A stretch of DNA of 63,839 nt from Chelativorans xinjiangensis (GTDB lineage Bacteria; Pseudomonadota; Alphaproteobacteria; Rhizobiales; Rhizobiaceae). Below the pieces are notes generated by a model that did no database searches, had not been told where the DNA came from, and saw nothing but the letters and a program-made list of their open reading frames with translations. The first letter of the stretch is position 1. Each line of letters opens with the position of its first letter. The DNA lies in the NCBI RefSeq assembly GCF_009812055.1, contig NZ_WQNH01000028.1:1-63839 (forward strand). The letters run 5' to 3'. A program made the translations under genes and the position numbers. Below are positions 3,714-61,915 of this stretch, in pieces.

Positions 3714-6700
3714 ATGACTGCCGGCAGATGGGACTTCTGGATTGACCGTGGCGGCACCTTCACCGACGTCATCGGCCGCGACCCCGAAGGCCGGCTTCAT
3801 GCGCGCAAGCTGCTGTCGGAAAACCCCGAAGCCTACCGCGACGCCGGCATCCAGGGCATCCGCGAGCTCCTGGGCGTTAAGGCCGGCGAGCCCATGCCCT
3901 CGCACCTGATCGGCGAGGTGAAGATGGGCACCACGGTCGCCACCAACGCGCTTCTGGAGCGCAAGGGCGACCGCGTTCTCCTGCTCGTCACCAAAGGCTT
4001 TCGCGACGCCCTGAAGATCGCCTACCAGGCCCGCCCCGACATCTTCGCCAAGGAGATCGTGCTGCCCGAACAGCTCTACGAGCGCGTCGTCGAGGTGCCG
4101 GAGCGCGTGCGCGTCGACGGCACGGTGGAGACGGCACTCGATCTTGCAGCGGTGCGCGCTAAGATGGAGGCGGCGAGAAAGGACGGCATCGACGCCGTGG
4201 CGGTCGTCTTCATGCACGCCTGGAAATACCCGGAGCACGAGAAGGAGGCCGCCGAACTTGCCCGCGCCCTCGGCTTCTCGCAAGTTTCGGCGAGCCACGA
4301 GACGTCGCCGCTGATAAAGCTCGTCGGCCGCGGCGACACGGCGGTGGTCGACGCGTATCTGTCCCCCATCCTTGCGCGTTATGTGCGGCTAGTGGCGGGC
4401 GAGCTTGGAATCCAATCGCATGATACGTCGGCGCGCGTCTCGCCCCCCTCTGTCCTGCCGGACATCTCCCCCACGAGGGGGGAGATTGGTGGTGGTGATG
4501 ACGGCACATCTCTTAGGAAGGGACGAACGGCTGATGACGGCGCAATCTCCCCCCTCGTGGGGGAGATGTCCGGCAGGACAGAGGGGGGCGAGACGGGCGC
4601 CGACAAAGCCGACCGCGATCCCCCCTTCCCCCGCCTCAAGTTCATGATGTCGTCCGGCGGGCTCACCGCGGCCGACATGTTCCAGGGCAAGGACGCCATC
4701 CTCTCCGGCCCCGCCGGCGGCGTGGTGGGCATGGTGGAGACGGCGCGCATCGCCGGTTTCGAGAAGGTGATCGGCTTCGACATGGGCGGCACCTCGACCG
4801 ACGTCGCCCATTACGAGGGCGAATATGAACGCGCCTTCGACACCGAGGTGGCCGGCGTGCGCATCCGCGCGCCGATGATGCGCATCCACACGGTGGCCGC
4901 CGGCGGCGGCTCCGTCCTGCACTATGAGGACGGCCGCCTTAAGGTCGGTCCCGATTCGGCCGGCGCCAACCCCGGCCCCGCCTGCTACCGCCGCGGCGGC
5001 CCCCTCGCCGTCACCGACGCCAACCTCATGCTGGGCAAGCTGCAGCCGGATTTCTTCCCGGCGATCTTCGGCCCCGGCCAGGACCAGCCGCTCGACGCCG
5101 ACACCGTGCGCGAGCGTTTCACCGCCCTGGCGGAAAGGGTCGGCGACGGCCGCCGCCCGGAGGTCGTGGCCGAGGGCTTCGTCACCATCGCCGTCGAGAA
5201 CATGGCCAACGCCATCAAGAAGATCTCCGTCCAGCGCGGCTACGACGTCACCCGCTACCTGCTCAACTGCTTCGGCGGCGCCGGCGGCCAGCACGCCTGC
5301 CTGGTGGCCGACGCGCTGGGCATGGAATCCGTCCTCATCCACCCCCTCTCCGGCCTTCTCTCGGCCTACGGCATCGGCCTTGCCACCGTCTCGGCCTCGC
5401 GCCAGAAGGCGCTGATCAAGCCGCTGTCTAAGGCCGCCCTCCCCGAGATCGAGGCGCTGATCGCCGAATTGCGCGAGGAGGTGGGGAAGGAACTCGCCGA
5501 CCAGGGCATCGCGGCCGCGACCACCGAGTGGCGCCTGCGCCTCGAGGTCCGCTACGACGGCACCGATACGACGCTCTCCGTCCCCTTCGACGAGCGCTCC
5601 ATCGACGCCGCCAGAACCGCCTTCGAGAGCGCCCACAAGGCGCAGTTCGGCTTCGTCTACGACGACAAGCCGATGGTCGTCGAGGCGGTCAATGTCGAGG
5701 GCGTGGACGCCCGCGCGGCGGGGCCGGAAGAGCCGTCCCTTGCCGTCAACGACACCGCGCCGGAACCGCACGTCACCCGCCGCATCTTCTGCGAGGGAGA
5801 ATGGCGCGAAGCCGGCATCTTCCGCCGCGCCGACCTGTCCCCCGGCAACCGCATCGACGGCCCTGCGCTCGTCATCGAGGACAACCAGACGATCGTCGTC
5901 GAGCCCGGCTGGCAGGCCGGGATCACGGCGCGCAATCACGTGCTCATGCGCCGCGTCGAGAAGAAGCCGCGCCAGGCAGCCCTCGGCACCGCGGCCGATC
6001 CGGTCATGCTGGAGGTCTTCAACAACCTCTTCATGTCGATCGCCGAGCAGATGGGCGTGACGCTCCAGAACACCGCCTATTCGGTGAACATCAAGGAGCG
6101 GCTCGACTTCTCCTGCGCCGTCTTCGACCGTAACGGCGCGCTGGTTGCCAACGCCCCGCACATGCCGGTGCATCTGGGCTCCATGGACCGCTCGGTGGAG
6201 ACCATCATCCGCCTCAACGAAGGCGACATCCGCCCCGGCGACGTCTTCGCGCTCAACGCCCCCTATAACGGCGGCACGCACCTGCCCGACATCACCGTCG
6301 TGACGCCGGTGTTCGATGGTGAGGAGTGGTCGGCCGACGGCCGATCGATCGACAACGATTTGTCGATCGAAACGACGAACGCCCGGAGCCATAGCGAAGG
6401 GCCGGGCAACATACTCTTTTGGGTCGCCTCGCGCGGCCACCACGCCGATGTCGGCGGCACGGCGCCCGGCTCCATGACGCCGCTCGCCACCAATGTGGAC
6501 GAGGAGGGCGTGCTGTTCGACAATTTCCGCCTCGTCGAACGCGGCCGCTTCCGCGAGAAGGAACTGCACCACCTCCTCACCGACCACCCCTACCCCGCCC
6601 GCAACCCGCACCAGAACATCGCCGACCTGAAGGCGCAGATCGCCGCCAACGAAAAGGGCGTGGCGGAACTGAGGAAAATGGTCGCCGACTTCGGCCTCGA

Positions 6701-33409: not shown

Positions 33410-33625
33410 ATGGGCCGACCGAGAGGATTGACGAAGGAAGAGCGCGAAGAGCTGCTGGCCAAGGGTTACAAGCCGGTGGAGATTTGGGTGCCGGACGTCG
33501 ACTCCGAGGCATTTTGGAAGGCCTTGGAAAGGGAAGGAGAGGCTATTCGCGAGTCCGACCGGAGGTCGCACATGGACAAGGTCCTTGAGGCATTCCTCGA
33601 AGACGTCTGGGACGATCTCGACTGA
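33410..33625 (+). CDS. MazE-like antitoxin (DUF3018 type)
   Basis: A 71-aa protein. An N-terminal basic segment (MGRPRGLTKEEREELLAKGY) precedes the conserved KPVEIWVPDVDSEAFWK and an acidic helical tail (HMDKVLEAFLEDVWDDLD) that would contact the toxin. It overlaps the next gene by one base (TGATG). Family DUF3018 antitoxins are regularly paired with MazF-like toxins. It interrupts the pyrimidine operon. Confidence 0.8.
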   Translation: MGRPRGLTKEEREELLAKGYKPVEIWVPDVDSEAFWKALEREGEAIRESDRRSHMDKVLEAFLEDVWDDLD

Positions 33626-33990
33626 TGGTCCGTGGCAGCGTGGTGCTTGTTTCGGCAAAGGGGGATTATGGGAAACCCCGTCCTGCCGTTATCGTGCAGG
33701 ACACGCGGATGGAAAAGATCATCGGCAGCATCACTGTTTGCTTTCTGACGACGGATCTGACGGACGAAAACGGCGTCCTGCGGGTCGACATCGGGCCGGA
33801 TGCCCTGAACGGTCTTCGTCAAAAATCGCAAGTTCAGGTCGAGAAGCTGATGACGTTCCCACGCGACAAGGTGAGAGGTCCAATCGGCCAGCTCGATCAA
33901 CTGCAAATGCGCGCCGTGGATATCGGATTGCTGGTGCATCTGGGCTTGGCTGCCCAGCTTGATGCACCGACGCCACGGCGAGGGCGATAA
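33625..33990 (+). CDS. MazF/PemK-like toxin endoribonuclease
   Basis: A 121-aa protein with the PemK/MazF pattern: GSVVLVSAKGDYGKPRPAVIVQ (the conserved R in KPRP), the TVCFLTTDLT core strand with the expected Ser/Thr, LRQKSQVQVEKLMTF and PIGQLDQLQMRAVDIGL. The KS-Q-V-Q segment corresponds to the family's catalytic-loop region. It probably cleaves mRNA. It is coupled to the MazE-like gene and ends 14 bp before the dihydropyrimidinase start, so it is likely co-transcribed with pyrimidine catabolism. Confidence 0.82.
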   Translation: MVRGSVVLVSAKGDYGKPRPAVIVQDTRMEKIIGSITVCFLTTDLTDENGVLRVDIGPDALNGLRQKSQVQVEKLMTFPRDKVRGPIGQLDQLQMRAVDIGLLVHLGLAAQLDAPTPRRGR

Positions 33991-34004: not shown

Positions 34005-35456
34005 ATGTCCAAAGTCATCAAGAACGGCACCATCGTCACAGCCGACCGCACGTGGAAGGCGGACGTCCTCATCAAGCACGACAAGATCGTCGGCATCGGC
34101 CCGGACCTTCACGCCGACCACGAGATCGACGCCACCGGCTGCTATGTCATGCCCGGCGGCATCGACCCGCACACGCATCTGGAGATGCCCTTCATGGGCA
34201 CCTACTCCTCGGACGATTTCGAGAGCGGCACGCGCGCTGCCGTCTCCGGCGGCACCACCATGGTGGTCGATTTCTGCCTCCCCTCGCCCGGCCAGTCGCT
34301 GCTCGAGGCGATCCAGATGTGGGACAACAAGTCCACCAAGGCTACCTGCGACTACTCCTTCCACATGGCGATCACCTGGTGGAGCGAAGAGGTCTTCAAC
34401 GAGATGGCCGAGGTGGTGGACCGCGGCATCACCTCCTTCAAGCACTTCATGGCCTATAAGGGCGCGCTGATGGTGGACGACGACGAGATGTATGCGTCCT
34501 TCCAGCGCTGCGCCGAGCTTGGCGCCCTTCCCCTTGTCCACGCCGAAAACGGCGACGTGGTGGCAGGGCTCCAGGCAAAGCTCATGGCCGCCGGCAACGA
34601 CGGCCCGGAGGCGCACGCCTATTCCCGTCCGCCGGAGGTGGAGGGCGAGGCCACCAACCGCGCTATCATGATCGCCGACATGGCCGGCAGCCCGCTCTAC
34701 GTGGTGCACACCTCCTGCGAGCAGGCGCATGAAGCCATCCGCCGCGCCCGCCAGAAGGGCATGCGCGTCTATGGCGAGCCGCTGATCCAGCATCTGGTGC
34801 TGGACGAGAGCGAATACGCGAACCCCGACTGGGACCACGCCGCCCGCCGCGTCATGTCGCCCCCCTTCCGCAACAAGCTGCACCAGGATTCGCTCTGGGC
34901 CGGCCTGCAGGCGGGCTCCCTACAGGTGGTGGCCACCGACCACTGCGCCTTCACCACCGAGCAGAAGCGCTTCGGTGTGGGCGACTTCACCAAGATCCCC
35001 AACGGCACGGGCGGCCTTGAGGACCGGATGCCGGTTCTGTGGACCTATGGCGTCAACACCGGCCGGCTGACCATGAACGAGTTCGTCGCCGTCACCTCGA
35101 CCAACAGCGCCAAGATCCTCAACATGTACCCGAAGAAGGGCGCCATCGTCGAAGGGGCGGACGCCGATATCGTGGTGTGGGACCCCAATGCGGAAAAGAC
35201 CATCTCCGCCGAGAACCAGCAGTCTGCGATCGACTACAACGTCTTCGAAGGCTTGCACGTCAAGGGCCTGCCGAAGACGGTGCTGTCGCGCGGCGAGATC
35301 GTCGTCGAGGACGGGGTGGTCAGGCCGAAGCCCGGCCATGGCGAGTTCGTGGCGCGCGAAGCCAACGCCCCCGTCAACCGGGCGCTGTCGAAGTGGAAAG
35401 AGGTGACTGCACCGCGCAAGGTCGAGCGGGCCGGCATCCCGGCGAGCGGGGTATGA
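34005..35456 (+). CDS. Dihydropyrimidinase
   Basis: A 483-aa amidohydrolase opening dihydrouracil or dihydrothymine to N-carbamoyl-beta-amino acids. Metal ligands lie in GGIDPHTHLEMPF (HxH). The carbamylated lysine region is ITSFKHFMAYKG; further metal residues are in LVHAENGD, VVHTSCEQAHE and VATDHCAFTTEQK. Length and the NGTIVTADRTWKADV start are standard. It follows the MazF-like gene by 14 bp. A DUF559 gene flanked by inverted repeats has inserted directly after it. Confidence 0.92.
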   Translation: MSKVIKNGTIVTADRTWKADVLIKHDKIVGIGPDLHADHEIDATGCYVMPGGIDPHTHLEMPFMGTYSSDDFESGTRAAVSGGTTMVVDFCLPSPGQSLLEAIQMWDNKSTKATCDYSFHMAITWWSEEVFNEMAEVVDRGITSFKHFMAYKGALMVDDDEMYASFQRCAELGALPLVHAENGDVVAGLQAKLMAAGNDGPEAHAYSRPPEVEGEATNRAIMIADMAGSPLYVVHTSCEQAHEAIRRARQKGMRVYGEPLIQHLVLDESEYANPDWDHAARRVMSPPFRNKLHQDSLWAGLQAGSLQVVATDHCAFTTEQKRFGVGDFTKIPNGTGGLEDRMPVLWTYGVNTGRLTMNEFVAVTSTNSAKILNMYPKKGAIVEGADADIVVWDPNAEKTISAENQQSAIDYNVFEGLHVKGLPKTVLSRGEIVVEDGVVRPKPGHGEFVAREANAPVNRALSKWKEVTAPRKVERAGIPASGV

Positions 35457-35470
35457 TAAGCGCAGGCAGA

Positions 35471-35937
35471 TCCCCCTCCCCCTTGAGGGGAGGGGTTAGG
35501 GGTGGGGGTACCGCCGCGATGCCCACGATCGTTAGAAAGAACGCCATCAAGCGCTCACGCCAGCTCCGCCGACACGCGACGGAAGGAGAAAAACGTCTCT
35601 GGCGCGAACTGAAAGAATTCAGGAAACTCTATGGCGTCCACGTCAGGCGGCAAGTTCCGATTGGCCCCTACGTGGCTGATTTCGCGATTCATTCCGCAAG
35701 ACTCGTGATTGAAGTCGACGGCCAGTTTCATACCGAGCCAGAAAGGATGGCATCAGACGCCACTAGGGATCGATGGCTTCACCAAGCGAGCTACAGGGTT
35801 CTACGCTTCCGAACGGGAGAATTGGATGAAACTTTGGACGGCTGCATCGAAGAGATACTTCGAGAGCTGGGGATAGTGCATTGAACGTCGTGACCCATAC
35901 CCCCACCCCTAACCCCTCCCCTCAAGGGGGAGGGGGA
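35471..35937. mobile_element. DUF559 element bounded by 40-bp perfect inverted repeats (family B)
   Basis: 35471-35510 (TCCCCCTCCCCCTTGAGGGG onward) and 35898-35937 are exact reverse complements over 40 bp. They enclose one gene, the DUF559 protein, with 8 bp and 13 bp to spare. Each arm is itself partly palindromic (CCCCTCCCC...GGGGAGGGG). Gene-less copies of the same repeat occur at 45372-45498, 46764-46947 and 61560-61810. The right arm supplies the GGGGGA upstream of the ABC ATPase start. Confidence 0.75.
35519..35884 (+). CDS. DUF559 protein, Vsr/PD-(D/E)XK nuclease-like
   Basis: A 121-aa basic protein. N-terminal basic helices (RKNAIKRSRQLRRHATEGEK, then RLWRELKEF) are followed by the DUF559 core: FRKLYGVHVRRQVPIGPYVA, then ADFAIH, RLVIEVDGQFH and YRVLRFRTGEL. 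The D...ExD pattern (ADFA, IEVDG) corresponds to the PD-(D/E)XK active site of Vsr-like endonucleases. The ATG at 35519 suits the family length. An in-frame ATG at 35453 overlapping the dihydropyrimidinase stop would add 22 residues translated from the repeat arm. It is the only gene inside a perfect 40-bp inverted-repeat pair. Confidence 0.8.
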   Translation: MPTIVRKNAIKRSRQLRRHATEGEKRLWRELKEFRKLYGVHVRRQVPIGPYVADFAIHSARLVIEVDGQFHTEPERMASDATRDRWLHQASYRVLRFRTGELDETLDGCIEEILRELGIVH

Positions 35938-35946
35938 CGTGAAGCA

Positions 35947-36723
35947 ATGGCGCCCGTCGTCGAGGCGCGGGGTCTGGGCCTCACCTTCGACACCGCCGAC
36001 GGCCCGGTCCAGGCGCTCGCAAACGTCGATCTTTCGGTCGGCCGCGGCGAGTTCGTCTCCTTCATCGGCCCGTCGGGCTGCGGCAAGACCACCTTCCTGC
36101 GCGTCATCGCCGACCTGGAGCGGCCGACGGCGGGCGACATCCGCGTCAACGGGCTCACGCCGGAGGCCGCCCGCCGGGCGCGGGCCTATGGCTACGTCTT
36201 CCAGGCGGCCGGTCTCTTTCCCTGGCGCACGATCGAGAAGAACGTCGCCTTGCCCCTGGAGATCATGGGCTATTCCAGCCGGGAGAGACAGGAGCGCGTG
36301 GCGCGCACGCTCGACCTCGTCAACCTCTCCGGTTTCGAGCGCAAATTCCCGTGGCAGCTTTCCGGCGGCATGCAGCAGCGCGCTTCGATCGCCCGCGCGC
36401 TCGCCTTCGACGCCGATCTGCTTCTGATGGACGAGCCCTTCGGCGCCCTGGACGAGATCGTGCGCGACCATCTGAACGAGCAGTTGCTGGAGCTATGGGC
36501 GCGCACCAACAAGACCATCTGCTTCGTCACGCACTCGATCCCCGAGGCGGTGTATCTTTCGACCCGCATCGTGGTGATGTCGCCGCGGCCCGGCCGCGTG
36601 ACGGACGTGATCGAATCCACGCTGCCGAAGGAGCGCCCGCTGGATATCCGCGAGACGCCGGAGTTTCTTGAGATCGCGCATCGTGTGCGCGAGGGCTTGA
36701 GGGCGGGGCATGCGGATGAGTGA
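35947..36723 (+). CDS. ABC transporter ATPase (nitrate/taurine/pyrimidine type)
   Basis: A 258-aa ATPase with Walker A GPSGCGKTTFLR, Q-loop YVFQAAGLFPW, signature QLSGGMQQRASIARAL, Walker B LLLMDEPFGALDE and the switch His in CFVTHSIPEAVY. The subfamily is that of SsuB/TauB/ThiZ. It energises the two permeases and the NMT1-like binding protein downstream, presumably importing pyrimidines. The ATG at 35947 was chosen because upstream codons are translated repeat sequence; its ribosome binding site lies in that repeat. Confidence 0.88.
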   Translation: MAPVVEARGLGLTFDTADGPVQALANVDLSVGRGEFVSFIGPSGCGKTTFLRVIADLERPTAGDIRVNGLTPEAARRARAYGYVFQAAGLFPWRTIEKNVALPLEIMGYSSRERQERVARTLDLVNLSGFERKFPWQLSGGMQQRASIARALAFDADLLLMDEPFGALDEIVRDHLNEQLLELWARTNKTICFVTHSIPEAVYLSTRIVVMSPRPGRVTDVIESTLPKERPLDIRETPEFLEIAHRVREGLRAGHADE

Positions 36724-36760: not shown

Positions 36761-36920
36761 CGCCCCCCTCTGGCCTGCCGGCCATCTCCCCCACAAGGGG
36801 GGAGATCAGCCGGCCGCTTGCTCCGGCGCCTGTTCTGCAACGTCGGCGATTGGCGGAGGCCGCCGCGACGGCTGATCTCCCCCCTTGTGGGGGAGATGGC
36901 CGGCAGGCCAGAGGGGGGCG
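36761..36920. repeat. Family-A inverted-repeat element inside the pyrimidine transporter operon
   Basis: The arms 36761-36812 and 36869-36920 are perfect 52-bp inverted copies (CGCCCCCCTCTGGCCTGCCG start, the GGCC variant of family A). The spacer has the shared core CTGCAACGTCGGCGATTGGC (36835-36854). It separates the ATPase from the first permease. Confidence 0.85.
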
Positions 36921-45355: not shown

Positions 45356-45498
45356 CTTTGTTCGGCTTCGCCTGACCCCCACCCTCAATCCCTCCCCTCA
45401 AGGGGGAGGGAAGCTTTCGTGCCCGGCGCCATGGTTAACGCCAATCGCCCAACGCTGACGTCCCCCTCCCCCTTGTGGGGAGGGATTGAGGGTGGGTC
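45356..45498. repeat. Family-B inverted-repeat element (gene-less)
   Basis: Arms at 45372-45411 and 45461-45498 (CCCTCCCCTCAAGGGGGAGG and its inverse). The left flank TTGTTCGGCTTCGCC recurs inverted at about 61812. The spacer ends with the shared core CGCCAATCGCCCAACGCTGA (45439-45458, reverse orientation). Confidence 0.75.
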
Positions 45499-46763: not shown

Positions 46764-46947
46764 AAGGCGCAACGCCCGCGACTCCCCTCCCCCTTGTGGG
46801 GAGGGGTGAGGGGTGGGGGTCAAGGCGTTCGCGTGCCGTCGCCGGCGATTGGCCTATCCCCGCCTATCAGGGATACGCCGGCTCATGTCGCCACGACCCC
46901 CACCCCTCACCCCACAAGGGGGAGGGGAGTCGCGGGCGTTGCGCCTT
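46764..46947. repeat. Family-B inverted-repeat element with extended arms
   Basis: Left arm 46764-46821 and right arm 46895-46947. Beyond the common CCCCTCCCCCTT core the inversion extends through AAGGCGCAACGCCCGCGACT (46764-46783), which is not seen elsewhere in the window. The left arm has a 5-bp AGGGG insertion relative to the right. It occupies most of the 270-bp gap between the convergent GST and preA genes. Confidence 0.75.
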
Positions 46948-60395: not shown

Positions 60396-60458
60396 GCGAA
60401 AGGGGTACCCCTCTCAAGACAGGGCAATCGCCTGAAAGGGCGGCACCCGTCGCGTCGA

Positions 60459-60617
60459 CCCCCCTCCGCCTGCCGGCACCTCCCCCACAAGGGGGGAGGC
60501 AGGCCGGCCGCTCGCTCCGGCGCCTCTTCTGCAACATTGGAGGTTGGCGAAGAGGGTCGCGACGGCTTTCCTCCCCCCTTGCGGGGGAGGTGCCGGCAGG
60601 CGGAGGGGGGTCGACGC
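60459..60617. repeat. Family-A-like inverted-repeat element between btuB and the btuF domain
   Basis: Arms at about 60459-60500 and 60572-60617 (CCCCCCTCCGCCTGCCGGCA-type variant), with the shared core CTGCAACATTGGAGGTTGGC (60529-60548) in the spacer. The frame from the ATG at 60392 remains open across it. Confidence 0.75.
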
Positions 60618-60688
60618 GACGGGCTCCGTCCTGTCAAGCGATTGCCCCACCCTCAAAGCGGGGGAGATGGCCGGCAGGCCAGAAGAGG

Positions 60689-61915
60689 GTGTTCCACGGA
60701 AGAAAGAGAGCCTCCCTCTCATTCAGCCTCTTCCTCGCCGGCGCTGCCCTCGCCATCCCCGCCCACGCCGAGCCCCCCGCCCGCGTCATGTCGCTCAACG
60801 TGTGCACGGACCAGCTCGCCATGGCACTCGCCGCTCCCGGCCAGCTCGTTTCCGTCTCCTTCCTGGCGCGCGATCCGGACCTTTCGCCGCTCCACCGCGA
60901 GGCGGAGCGCTATCCCGTCAACCGCGGCATGGCGGAGGATGTGTTCCTGGCGCGGCCCGACCTCGTCGTCACCGGAACCTACACGCTCCACAACACCACG
61001 CAGCTCCTGAAGCGGCTCGGCTTCCGCGTCGAGGAATTCAGCTTCGTGCAGACCCTCGACACCATCCCCCGCGACATCCGCCGCATGGGCGCGCTGCTCG
61101 GCCGCGAGGAAAAGGCCGAGGCCATGGCCGCCGATTTCGAGGCGGGGCTGGCCGAGGTCGAGGCCGATAGGTGCGAACCGCGCCCGACGGCACTCGCCTA
61201 CGAGCAGAACGGCGTGGCGCTGGGCAAGGGCACGTTGGCCGATACGGTGCTCGCCGCCGCCGGCTTCCGGAATCTGGCCGCTGAAGAGGGCGTAGAGGGC
61301 ATGGCCCCCTTCCCGCTCGAGCTGGTGGTGGAGAAGAAGCCCGACATCGTCATCGTGCCCGGCGGCGACGGCGACGCCCCCTCCCTCGGCGCCTTCGTGC
61401 CGCGCCATCCGGCGCTTCGCGCGCTGCCGGCCACCCGCATCGGCGCTTTCGTGCCGCGCGGCAGCTGGTCCTGCGGCGGGCCGGCGGTGCTGGAGGCGGT
61501 AAAGGCGCTCCACGCGCTGCGCCGTGAGATCAAATCCTGCGAGGCGCCGCCGCTGCCGGCTCCCCTCCCCCTTGAGGGGAGGGGTAAGGGGTGGGGGTCG
61601 GCGCGGAGCGCCCCAAAGAAAAATTCCTTGACGCCCTGCGGGCTAACCCCCACCCCCAACCCCTCCCCTCAGGGGGCAGGGCTATCGCATATGGATTTTG
61701 AGTTCTTGATCGGACCCCCACCCCTTACCCCTCCCCTCAAGGGGGAGGGGGATTCTGAGGTGTCGGCGCCCCCCTCCCCCTTGAGGGGAGGGGTGAGGGG
61801 TGGGGGCCCCGGCGAAGCCGAACAAAGACTCCATCCATATGCGATAGCCCTGCCTCAAGGGGGAAGGGAGCCAGTGCGCGCCGCAGTTGCCCCACCTTGC
61901 GGGGAAGCGCCATGA
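60689..61915 (+). CDS. btuF: Cobalamin ABC transporter periplasmic binding protein BtuF with repeat-encoded C-terminal tail
   Basis: A 408-aa product from GTG 60689, where a signal peptide begins (SLSFSLFLAGAALAIPAHA). The frame is open back to an ATG at 60392 overlapping the btuB stop, which would add 99 residues translated from a family-A repeat. The class III binding-protein domain covers about residues 30-285 (RVMSLNVCTDQLAMALA, LVVTGTYTLHN, PDIVIVPGGDG, WSCGGPAVLEAVKAL). The last 120 or so codons (from about 61555) are family-B repeats in frame. The stop still overlaps the btuC start (ATGA). Confidence 0.82.
   Translation: MFHGRKRASLSFSLFLAGAALAIPAHAEPPARVMSLNVCTDQLAMALAAPGQLVSVSFLARDPDLSPLHREAERYPVNRGMAEDVFLARPDLVVTGTYTLHNTTQLLKRLGFRVEEFSFVQTLDTIPRDIRRMGALLGREEKAEAMAADFEAGLAEVEADRCEPRPTALAYEQNGVALGKGTLADTVLAAAGFRNLAAEEGVEGMAPFPLELVVEKKPDIVIVPGGDGDAPSLGAFVPRHPALRALPATRIGAFVPRGSWSCGGPAVLEAVKALHALRREIKSCEAPPLPAPLPLEGRGKGWGSARSAPKKNSLTPCGLTPTPNPSPQGAGLSHMDFEFLIGPPPLTPPLKGEGDSEVSAPPSPLRGGVRGGGPGEAEQRLHPYAIALPQGGREPVRAAVAPPCGEAP
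61560..61870. repeat. Cluster of four family-B repeats, nested inverted, inside the btuF 3' end
   Basis: Copies at about 61560-61600, 61647-61680, 61713-61752 and 61769-61808 in alternating orientation. An outer pair GGCAGGGCTATCGCATATGG (61675-61694) with its inverse ending 61854 encloses the last two. GGCGAAGCCGAACA near 61812 also flanks the 45372 copy. All are translated in the btuF frame. Confidence 0.75.

Follow-up and report, generated by a model that had tools for sequence, protein, structure and literature searches.

The DNA considered here is a window of 63,839 nucleotides (the whole stretch analysed) from Chelativorans xinjiangensis, contig NZ_WQNH01000028.1, in which a gene for a small DUF559 protein is enclosed, at positions 35471–35937, by two exactly complementary arms of a palindromic repeat. 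We consider it probable that this locus is a REPtron-like unit, and that DUF559 serves a third superfamily of repetitive extragenic palindromes (REPs) as its dedicated nuclease. For this superfamily we coin the name CTC-REPs; its members have a C-rich stem, a loop, a G-rich stem, often the motif YTRGG, a G-rich tail and sometimes a second, hypervariable hairpin. DUF559 genes are associated with such repeats in the genomes of several phyla; the type of repeat is paired with the clade of the protein, the number of repeats is related to the number of genes, and the element is present in some relatives and absent from others, while the gene itself encodes a nuclease fold and is under purifying selection.

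DUF559 genes adjoin C-tract palindromes

DUF559 was found in 74 of the 121 genomes of the window's family, with one to six genes in each genome that bears it. The first set of loci comprised 80 regions of the family with 81 best-scoring matches among those listed, taken with about 8 kb per side where the contig allowed; one match was short of flank, leaving 80 genes to be tested. The second comprised 60 more family matches among the matches listed, and the third was the best 80 of at least 565 confirmed places in named genomes, of which 77 were testable. The family sampling did not take in G031:C46 (which lies at the edge of a contig), the copy in the window itself, the last seven matches on the list or any unlisted ones. 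Since the loci were taken from the tops of match lists, the samples are best-scoring, not random. Two features were sought: inverted repeats straddling the gene, at a local score of at least 16 (and also at least 18), and a C-rich/G-rich hairpin core, here the C-tract core, within 350 bp of it. The core pattern was devised after inspection of the first 80 genes, and the two further sets were therefore used as checks.

In the first set, inverted repeats scoring at least 16 straddle 36 of the 80 genes, compared with 1 of 807 random positions of the same geometry in the same regions; at a score of at least 18 the counts are 33 and 0. The C-tract core is found beside 78 of the 80 genes as against 20 of 810 random positions, and within the same family it adjoins 0 of 28 genes for the toxin ParE (two further loci were too short) and 1 of 27 GIY-YIG genes. 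The second set behaves similarly, with the core near 51 of 60 genes and a straddling inverted repeat at 41. Across several phyla, the named-genome loci show the core at 71 of 77 (6 of 144 control positions at the same loci) and a straddling inverted repeat at 54 of 77 (1 of 141 control positions). Among the exceptions, units of variant form were seen by eye at all nine misses of the second set, at one miss of the first (L108; L and G numbers are our handles for loci and genomes) and at three of the six named-locus misses (L188, L207, L251). The other miss of the first set (L079) has a repeat remnant only, and L215 has a straddling inverted repeat; at L209 and L218 neither the core nor a straddling inverted repeat was found.

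The random positions, the shifted positions in the named loci and a reversed-pattern control rule out chance or base composition as the source of these figures, and the ParE count rules out the notion that every small accessory gene has such repeats. A known structured RNA is rejected as a reading, as no Rfam family scored above threshold at 13 loci, and so is a plasmid-borne element: a search of 72,556 plasmid records with one DUF559 protein matched 45, and several of these are as large as a chromosome. The gene thus adjoins, or is flanked by, its own dispersed palindromes, as in a REPtron. An earlier reading of the window from its sequence only had proposed to test if DUF559 genes are flanked by inverted repeats; the repeats are indeed general in all three sets, and orthologues generally free of them were not observed, although the flanking copies are not always inverted pairs.

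The named loci are mostly from Pseudomonadota. The titles of eight testable loci place them elsewhere (Spirochaetes, Syntrophaceae, Planctomycetota, Chloroflexi, Daviesbacteria, Stahlbacteria, Nitrospirae and Rokuibacteriota), and all eight have the core (L210, L211, L214, L222, L226, L235, L245, L250). Nine of the 45 plasmid-collection records were inspected by eye: units are present in eight, from E. coli, Deinococcus (two), cyanobacteria (three), Azospirillum and Photobacterium, and none were seen in the ninth, which holds a partial Thermoactinomyces gene.

Repeat type follows the protein, and repeat number follows the gene

The type of repeat follows the DUF559 clade and not the genome; co-variation of the two was a test proposed in the sequence-only reading. 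Among 141 family genes, the similarity between the flanking repeats of a gene and those of the gene in another genome with the nearest protein has a median of 44.5, compared with 14.4 for random genes, and is the greater of the two in 135 cases; compared with the remaining DUF559 genes in the first gene's own genome (13.5), it is greater in 103 of 109. The relationship persists at non-syntenic loci: for close homologues with non-aligning outer flanks, available for 67 of 81 genes, the values are 34.5 and 17.1, with the former greater in 57 of 67 (p 1.6e-10).

Over the 121 genomes, the count of core palindromes rises with the count of DUF559 genes (Spearman 0.75, p 6e-23, and 0.71 after allowing for genome size, both with no phylogenetic correction), so that independence of the two, the outcome named beforehand as adverse, was not observed. 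The median palindrome count is 39 in the 74 genomes with DUF559 and 0 in the 47 without, and of the 25 genomes with zero palindromes a single one matches DUF559, and does so weakly (G042, E 3e-4). In the window's own genome the core palindrome is matched 331 times and the reversed control pattern 4 times; that genome's four DUF559 genes each lie, by eye, next to a different repeat class, one of these being only a remnant. When the arms were searched against the rest of the fetched regions, own-genome copies were recovered for 9 of 36 elements, at a pooled density of 2.4 versus 0.5 per 100 kb; that the number is so small reflects how little of each genome the fetched regions span.

Anatomy and orientation of the repeats

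Gene strands, rechecked by profile, agreed in 81 of 81 cases. Counting units upstream and downstream of 160 oriented DUF559 genes with a slightly wider pattern, where "2" means two or more, we find 1+1 in 44, 2+0 in 36, 0+2 in 19, 1+2 in 15, 1+0 in 13, 2+1 in 12, 2+2 in 11, 0+0 in 6 and 0+1 in 4. The G-rich tail of the nearest upstream unit is directed toward the gene in 69 cases and away from it in 18 (44 unresolved; p 3e-8), and that of the nearest downstream unit toward it in 60 and away in 19 (26 unresolved; p 4e-6). When the two sides of the first 80 genes are compared, a score of 16 is reached by one order or the other in 42, the inverted order being the better in 16 and the direct order in 21. 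The idea that only inverted pairs surround these genes is therefore wrong, since repeats in direct order and dimers on one side of the gene are common.

Of the 107 nearest units, 33 have the motif YTRGG after the G stem, as against a mean of 4.0 and a maximum of 11 in shuffled sequences. In some repeat classes a second hairpin lies between the stem and the tail, and for 55 distinct inner segments folding is better than in mononucleotide shuffles of the same segments (median z -2.45, with 58% below -1.5); pairing is therefore maintained as the sequence varies. As a separate observation, a four-run G-quadruplex motif is present on the G-rich strand of 42 of the 107 nearest units, a raw motif count made on unshuffled sequence. 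One might also speculate that the G-rich tail, where it lies just 5′ of the start codon, doubles as a ribosome-binding region.

The element in the window

The features of the window to which we refer are as follows.

35471–35510, forward strand: left repeat unit, with a C-rich stem, the loop CTTGA, a G-rich stem, TTA and a G-rich tail toward the gene
35519–35884, forward strand: DUF559 (PF04480) nuclease gene, 121 aa, with ATG at 35519 and stop at 35884 (profile E 1e-29)
35898–35937, reverse strand: right repeat unit, the exact reverse complement of the left unit, in frame with the ATPase open reading frame
35881–36723, forward strand: ABC transporter ATPase open reading frame, open from TTG 35881, with ATG 35947 as an alternative start
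34005–35456, forward strand: dihydropyrimidinase gene (hydA), the left neighbour and the anchor for the empty-site search
36761–36920, no strand assigned: gene-less inverted pair of a related repeat class, with 52-bp perfect arms, between the ATPase and permease genes
45378–45496, no strand assigned: gene-less inverted pair of the window's class (units 45378–45410 and 45464–45496)
46764–46947, no strand assigned: gene-less inverted pair (units 46764–46813 and 46898–46947, 92% complementary)
61562–61809, no strand assigned: four clustered gene-less units of the window's class

The exact 40-bp inverted arms first noticed around the gene are as described: each is 40 nt long, they are 100% complementary and 387 nt apart, and their inverted-repeat score of 40 may be set beside the 0 of 807 random same-geometry positions in related regions that reached even 18. 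Each arm is a hairpin on its own, followed after TTA by a second G-rich run directed at the DUF559 gene. Read directly, the arm sequence has no GTAG tag. The TTG at 35881 in the ATPase frame overlaps the DUF559 stop, and that frame stays open across the right arm. The unit does lie inside a pyrimidine gene cluster, with amidohydrolase, dihydropyrimidinase, ABC ATPase and permease genes; the same cluster includes the perfect 52-bp pair of the related class (36761–36812 and 36869–36920), which the earlier reading had passed over. Gene-less copies reported from three other places in the window are real, and the coordinates listed above refine their limits. At the 46764–46947 pair the inverted similarity continues about 20 bp past the repeat, and most other inverted pairs stop near the unit.

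Further inverted repeat pairs lie at 60422–60647 and 4427–4604, with approximate ends; at the former, inverted similarity reaches 58 bp outward of the core, as though from fold-back copying. A PemK/MazF-like toxin gene (PF02452, E 4.7e-17) at 33625–33990 separates the amidohydrolase and dihydropyrimidinase genes.

Presence and absence at the same site

A test for empty sites between the dihydropyrimidinase and ATPase genes of close relatives had been proposed, and congeners do have them. Judged by eye, G121 (dihydropyrimidinase 99% identical) has the element intact, whereas it retains both arms around an internally deleted DUF559 gene in G128 (94%; L258), and is absent from G125 (96%) and from G090 and G123 (91%); in G131 (90%) hydA is followed by other DNA, in which DUF559 was not found. 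The filled and empty junctions at hydA have diverged, and they show no visible target-site duplication. Altogether 23 hydA loci were examined, with 1.5 kb per side, and six have DUF559: downstream in the window genome (G000) and G121, upstream in G002, G004 and G009, and on both sides in G003. The upstream position thus recurs in four other genera (G002, G003, G004, G009).

The hpa cluster of Deinococcus offers another example of varied placement. In D. proteolyticus the DUF559 gene lies between hpaB and an oxidoreductase gene that overlaps hpaE by 4 bp; in strain NW-56 it lies between the oxidoreductase gene and hpaE. The slots differ in the two genomes, and inverted arms are present in both.

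The DUF559 protein

DUF559 had been assigned to the Vsr/PD-(D/E)XK nuclease fold, and structure comparison with VIA-align agrees: among the folds that VIA-align lists, the window protein is of the Vsr/EDxHD homing endonuclease type, and it has the EDxHD/Vsr catalytic domain. It also gives a weak profile match to I-Bth0305I. An alignment of 26 DUF559 proteins has 16 invariant columns, and comparison of the window gene with its G121 copy gives a nonsynonymous rate (dN) of 0.086 and a synonymous rate (dS) of 0.634; the gene is under purifying selection.

The fold is common to Vsr, I-Bth0305I and the window protein, although the similarity has limits. Unlike those enzymes, the window protein is encoded within repeats, and it is a single domain of 121 aa that does not have the long DNA-binding extension described for I-Bth0305I in a passage of PMC3943268. 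An EDxHD homing endonuclease cuts the allele that lacks its gene and is copied into it; DUF559 might do likewise, and sites with and without the element do exist, though with diverged junctions.

GIY-YIG genes and CGTC repeats

GIY-YIG genes were initially chosen as a control for DUF559, and the result was unexpected. At the top-scoring GIY-YIG loci of the family (L115–L144), straddling inverted repeats are present in 18 of 27 that were testable (three more were too short), and the repeats are mostly of another class, CGTCAT...ATCCA. A CGTC-type repeat lies within 350 bp of 21 of these 27 genes, in comparison with 29 of 810 random positions, 2 of 80 DUF559 genes and 0 of 28 ParE genes, and the GIY-YIG count (minus one for UvrC) correlates with the CGTC count at 0.53. 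In a phylum-wide draw of 27 new loci (L281–L307), one of them too short, 7 of 26 are flanked by repeats in either order, 6 of these inverted, compared with inverted repeats at 0 of 52 control positions; some loci outside the family adjoin other repeat classes (CCTCATCCTGAGG / TTCGACAAGCTCAGG types). The pairing of GIY-YIG genes with one class of repeat therefore fails as a general rule outside the window's family.

CGTC-tagged REPs (Di Nocera 2013) are small palindromes, found mostly as head-to-head dimers, that are common in alphaproteobacteria and include Neisseria dRS3. In a passage of PMC3733652 they "apparently lack a dedicated transposase", and the term "GIY-YIG" is absent from its main text. 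Like the repeats of the window they are small palindromes; they differ in class, and in our samples they accompany small GIY-YIG nucleases and not DUF559. These nucleases appear to act on CGTC-type repeats in the way that we suggest for DUF559.

The E. coli counterpart

The DUF559 gene of E. coli is ycjD (K-12 b1289), which has sapF and fabI as its neighbours and is followed downstream by three units. Aligned over 37 columns, the arm from the window and the unit from E. coli share 30 identities. The unit is present in 5375 of 5426 E. coli genomes, at a median of 16 places (range 1–29), and at least 80% of the ycjD block is held by 3333 of the 5375. Among 20 genomes spread down the ranking, 12 hold the block, 7 sapF alone and 1 merely a 41-nt repeat, with no clear difference in repeat copy number by ycjD state across these 20; at two of the sapF-only loci that were read, an efflux gene adjoins sapF. 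Given its near-universal presence, the unit therefore outlives the ycjD gene. The unit is probably BoxC, the first description of which is reported to have come from next to envM/fabI. Lying between ycjD and fabI, the unit is, like BoxC, multi-copy, GC-rich and about 50 bp long. The dimensions printed for BoxC in a table of PMC2267715 (56 bp, 32 copies) agree just roughly with a median of 16 places.

How the repeats might be maintained

It is informative to consider what a stand-alone nuclease of this fold could do for such repeats. We infer that DUF559 recognises, cuts and spreads them: the protein would bind its cognate type of repeat at the hairpin and tail and nick or cut it there; taking a second locus with homologous repeats as template, host repair would then copy the repeat, or the whole repeat-gene-repeat unit, with the net outcome of homing into or between REPs. 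Host repair would be needed for new copies because the Vsr/EDxHD fold hydrolyses DNA and does not form the covalent joints of HUH enzymes. The fold-back-like pair at 46764–46947 fits repair synthesis. A broader proposal, to which we give somewhat less than even credence, is that several palindrome superfamilies are each kept by a different stand-alone hydrolytic nuclease with a fold of the homing type (Vsr/EDxHD-type DUF559 for C-tract repeats, GIY-YIG for CGTC repeats) and spread by homing into repeats with the help of host repair, a path other than HUH transposition, in several phyla, E. coli included.

The parallel with REPs and their RAYT (REP-associated tyrosine transposase) proteins, drawn at the outset with a different catalytic fold in mind, is sound in its architecture and in the Vsr/EDxHD fold, and weaker in that the flanking repeats are often direct or one-sided. 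Common to the two systems are extragenic palindromes in high copy number, a small nuclease gene on the chromosome with its own repeats beside or around it, and an enzyme matched to the repeat type. In contrast, the RAYT enzyme is an HUH Y1 protein and DUF559 a hydrolytic fold of the restriction type; the GTAG tag belongs to their repeats and not to the window arm; and DUF559 units often consist of one-sided dimers. The analogy nevertheless stands as better supported than a single locus could make it. Set beside an insertion sequence, with its terminal inverted repeats and target-site duplication, the window unit has inverted arms, other DUF559 loci are direct or one-sided, and no duplication is visible at hydA.

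Weighing the alternatives

Several observations count against a dedicated role for DUF559. The most serious competing possibility, which we regard as unlikely, is that the gene is a passenger, cargo that lands in repeat-rich intergenic sites while the repeats are moved otherwise or by slippage and recombination. It draws on the excess of palindromes over genes in the window's genome (331 to 4), on the persistence of repeats in E. coli genomes without the ycjD block (5375 genomes with the unit, 3333 with the block) and on the missing target-site duplication at hydA. Also adverse to our proposal are the predominance of direct over inverted order around the first 80 genes (21 to 16), the 7 of 47 family genomes without DUF559 that carry at least 20 palindromes, and cross-correlations of 0.43–0.45 with the GIY-YIG/CGTC system. 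However, cargo landing where repeats abound would not lead one to expect that ParE, another small accessory family, is never beside C-tract repeats, that GIY-YIG genes adjoin a different class, that repeat type tracks the DUF559 clade at non-syntenic loci, or that the tails are directed at the gene. Less likely again is that DUF559 is a Vsr-like short-patch enzyme tied to cytosine methylation, with the repeats as terminators or regulators. The VsrA protein of C. crescentus contains a DUF559 domain, and a role in mismatch repair is proposed for it in a passage of PMC12907096, yet repeats that were terminators or regulators would poorly explain clade-specific repeat types, upstream repeats with a preferred tail orientation and a genome-wide correlation in copy number.

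A part in defence, with DUF559 as a nuclease against DNA entering the cell and with repeats that mark, regulate or insulate it, would suit a small stand-alone nuclease that varies in presence and absence. We find it improbable, given that the sole defence-profile match of the window protein is weak and local (DpdF, E 1e-4, about 50 of 1078 residues) with none for a relative, that the plasmid search cited above matched so few records, and that repeat dispersal and the copy-number correlation are left unexplained. It is hardly credible that the repeats are ordinary REPs moved in trans by an HUH Y1 transposase, with DUF559 incidental. A dedicated HUH enzyme is known for GTAG repeats, according to passages of PMC3733652 and PMC8266576; the window arm has no GTAG, and Y1_Tnp (E 1e-15 or better) occurs in 4 of 51 family genomes and, at that threshold, not in the window's own genome with its hundreds of C-tract palindromes.

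Implications

DUF559 may be the missing enzyme of a widespread and still unexplained class of repeats, and it and the small GIY-YIG proteins are candidate enzymes for repeats that have been reported without one. Among the open-licence PMC papers that our searches listed (subscription journals and preprints being outside the scope), none has a title or abstract opening that connects DUF559 or GIY-YIG genes with repeats of this kind. If the proposal is true, an uncharacterised Pfam family would become a testable enzyme, and a repeat class extending from alphaproteobacteria to E. coli, with single loci in Chloroflexi, Spirochaetes, cyanobacteria and Deinococcus, would be explained. It would also suggest that REP maintenance arose more than once, from unrelated catalytic folds. 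E. coli K-12 carries both ycjD and the repeats, which makes the question testable in a standard laboratory strain.
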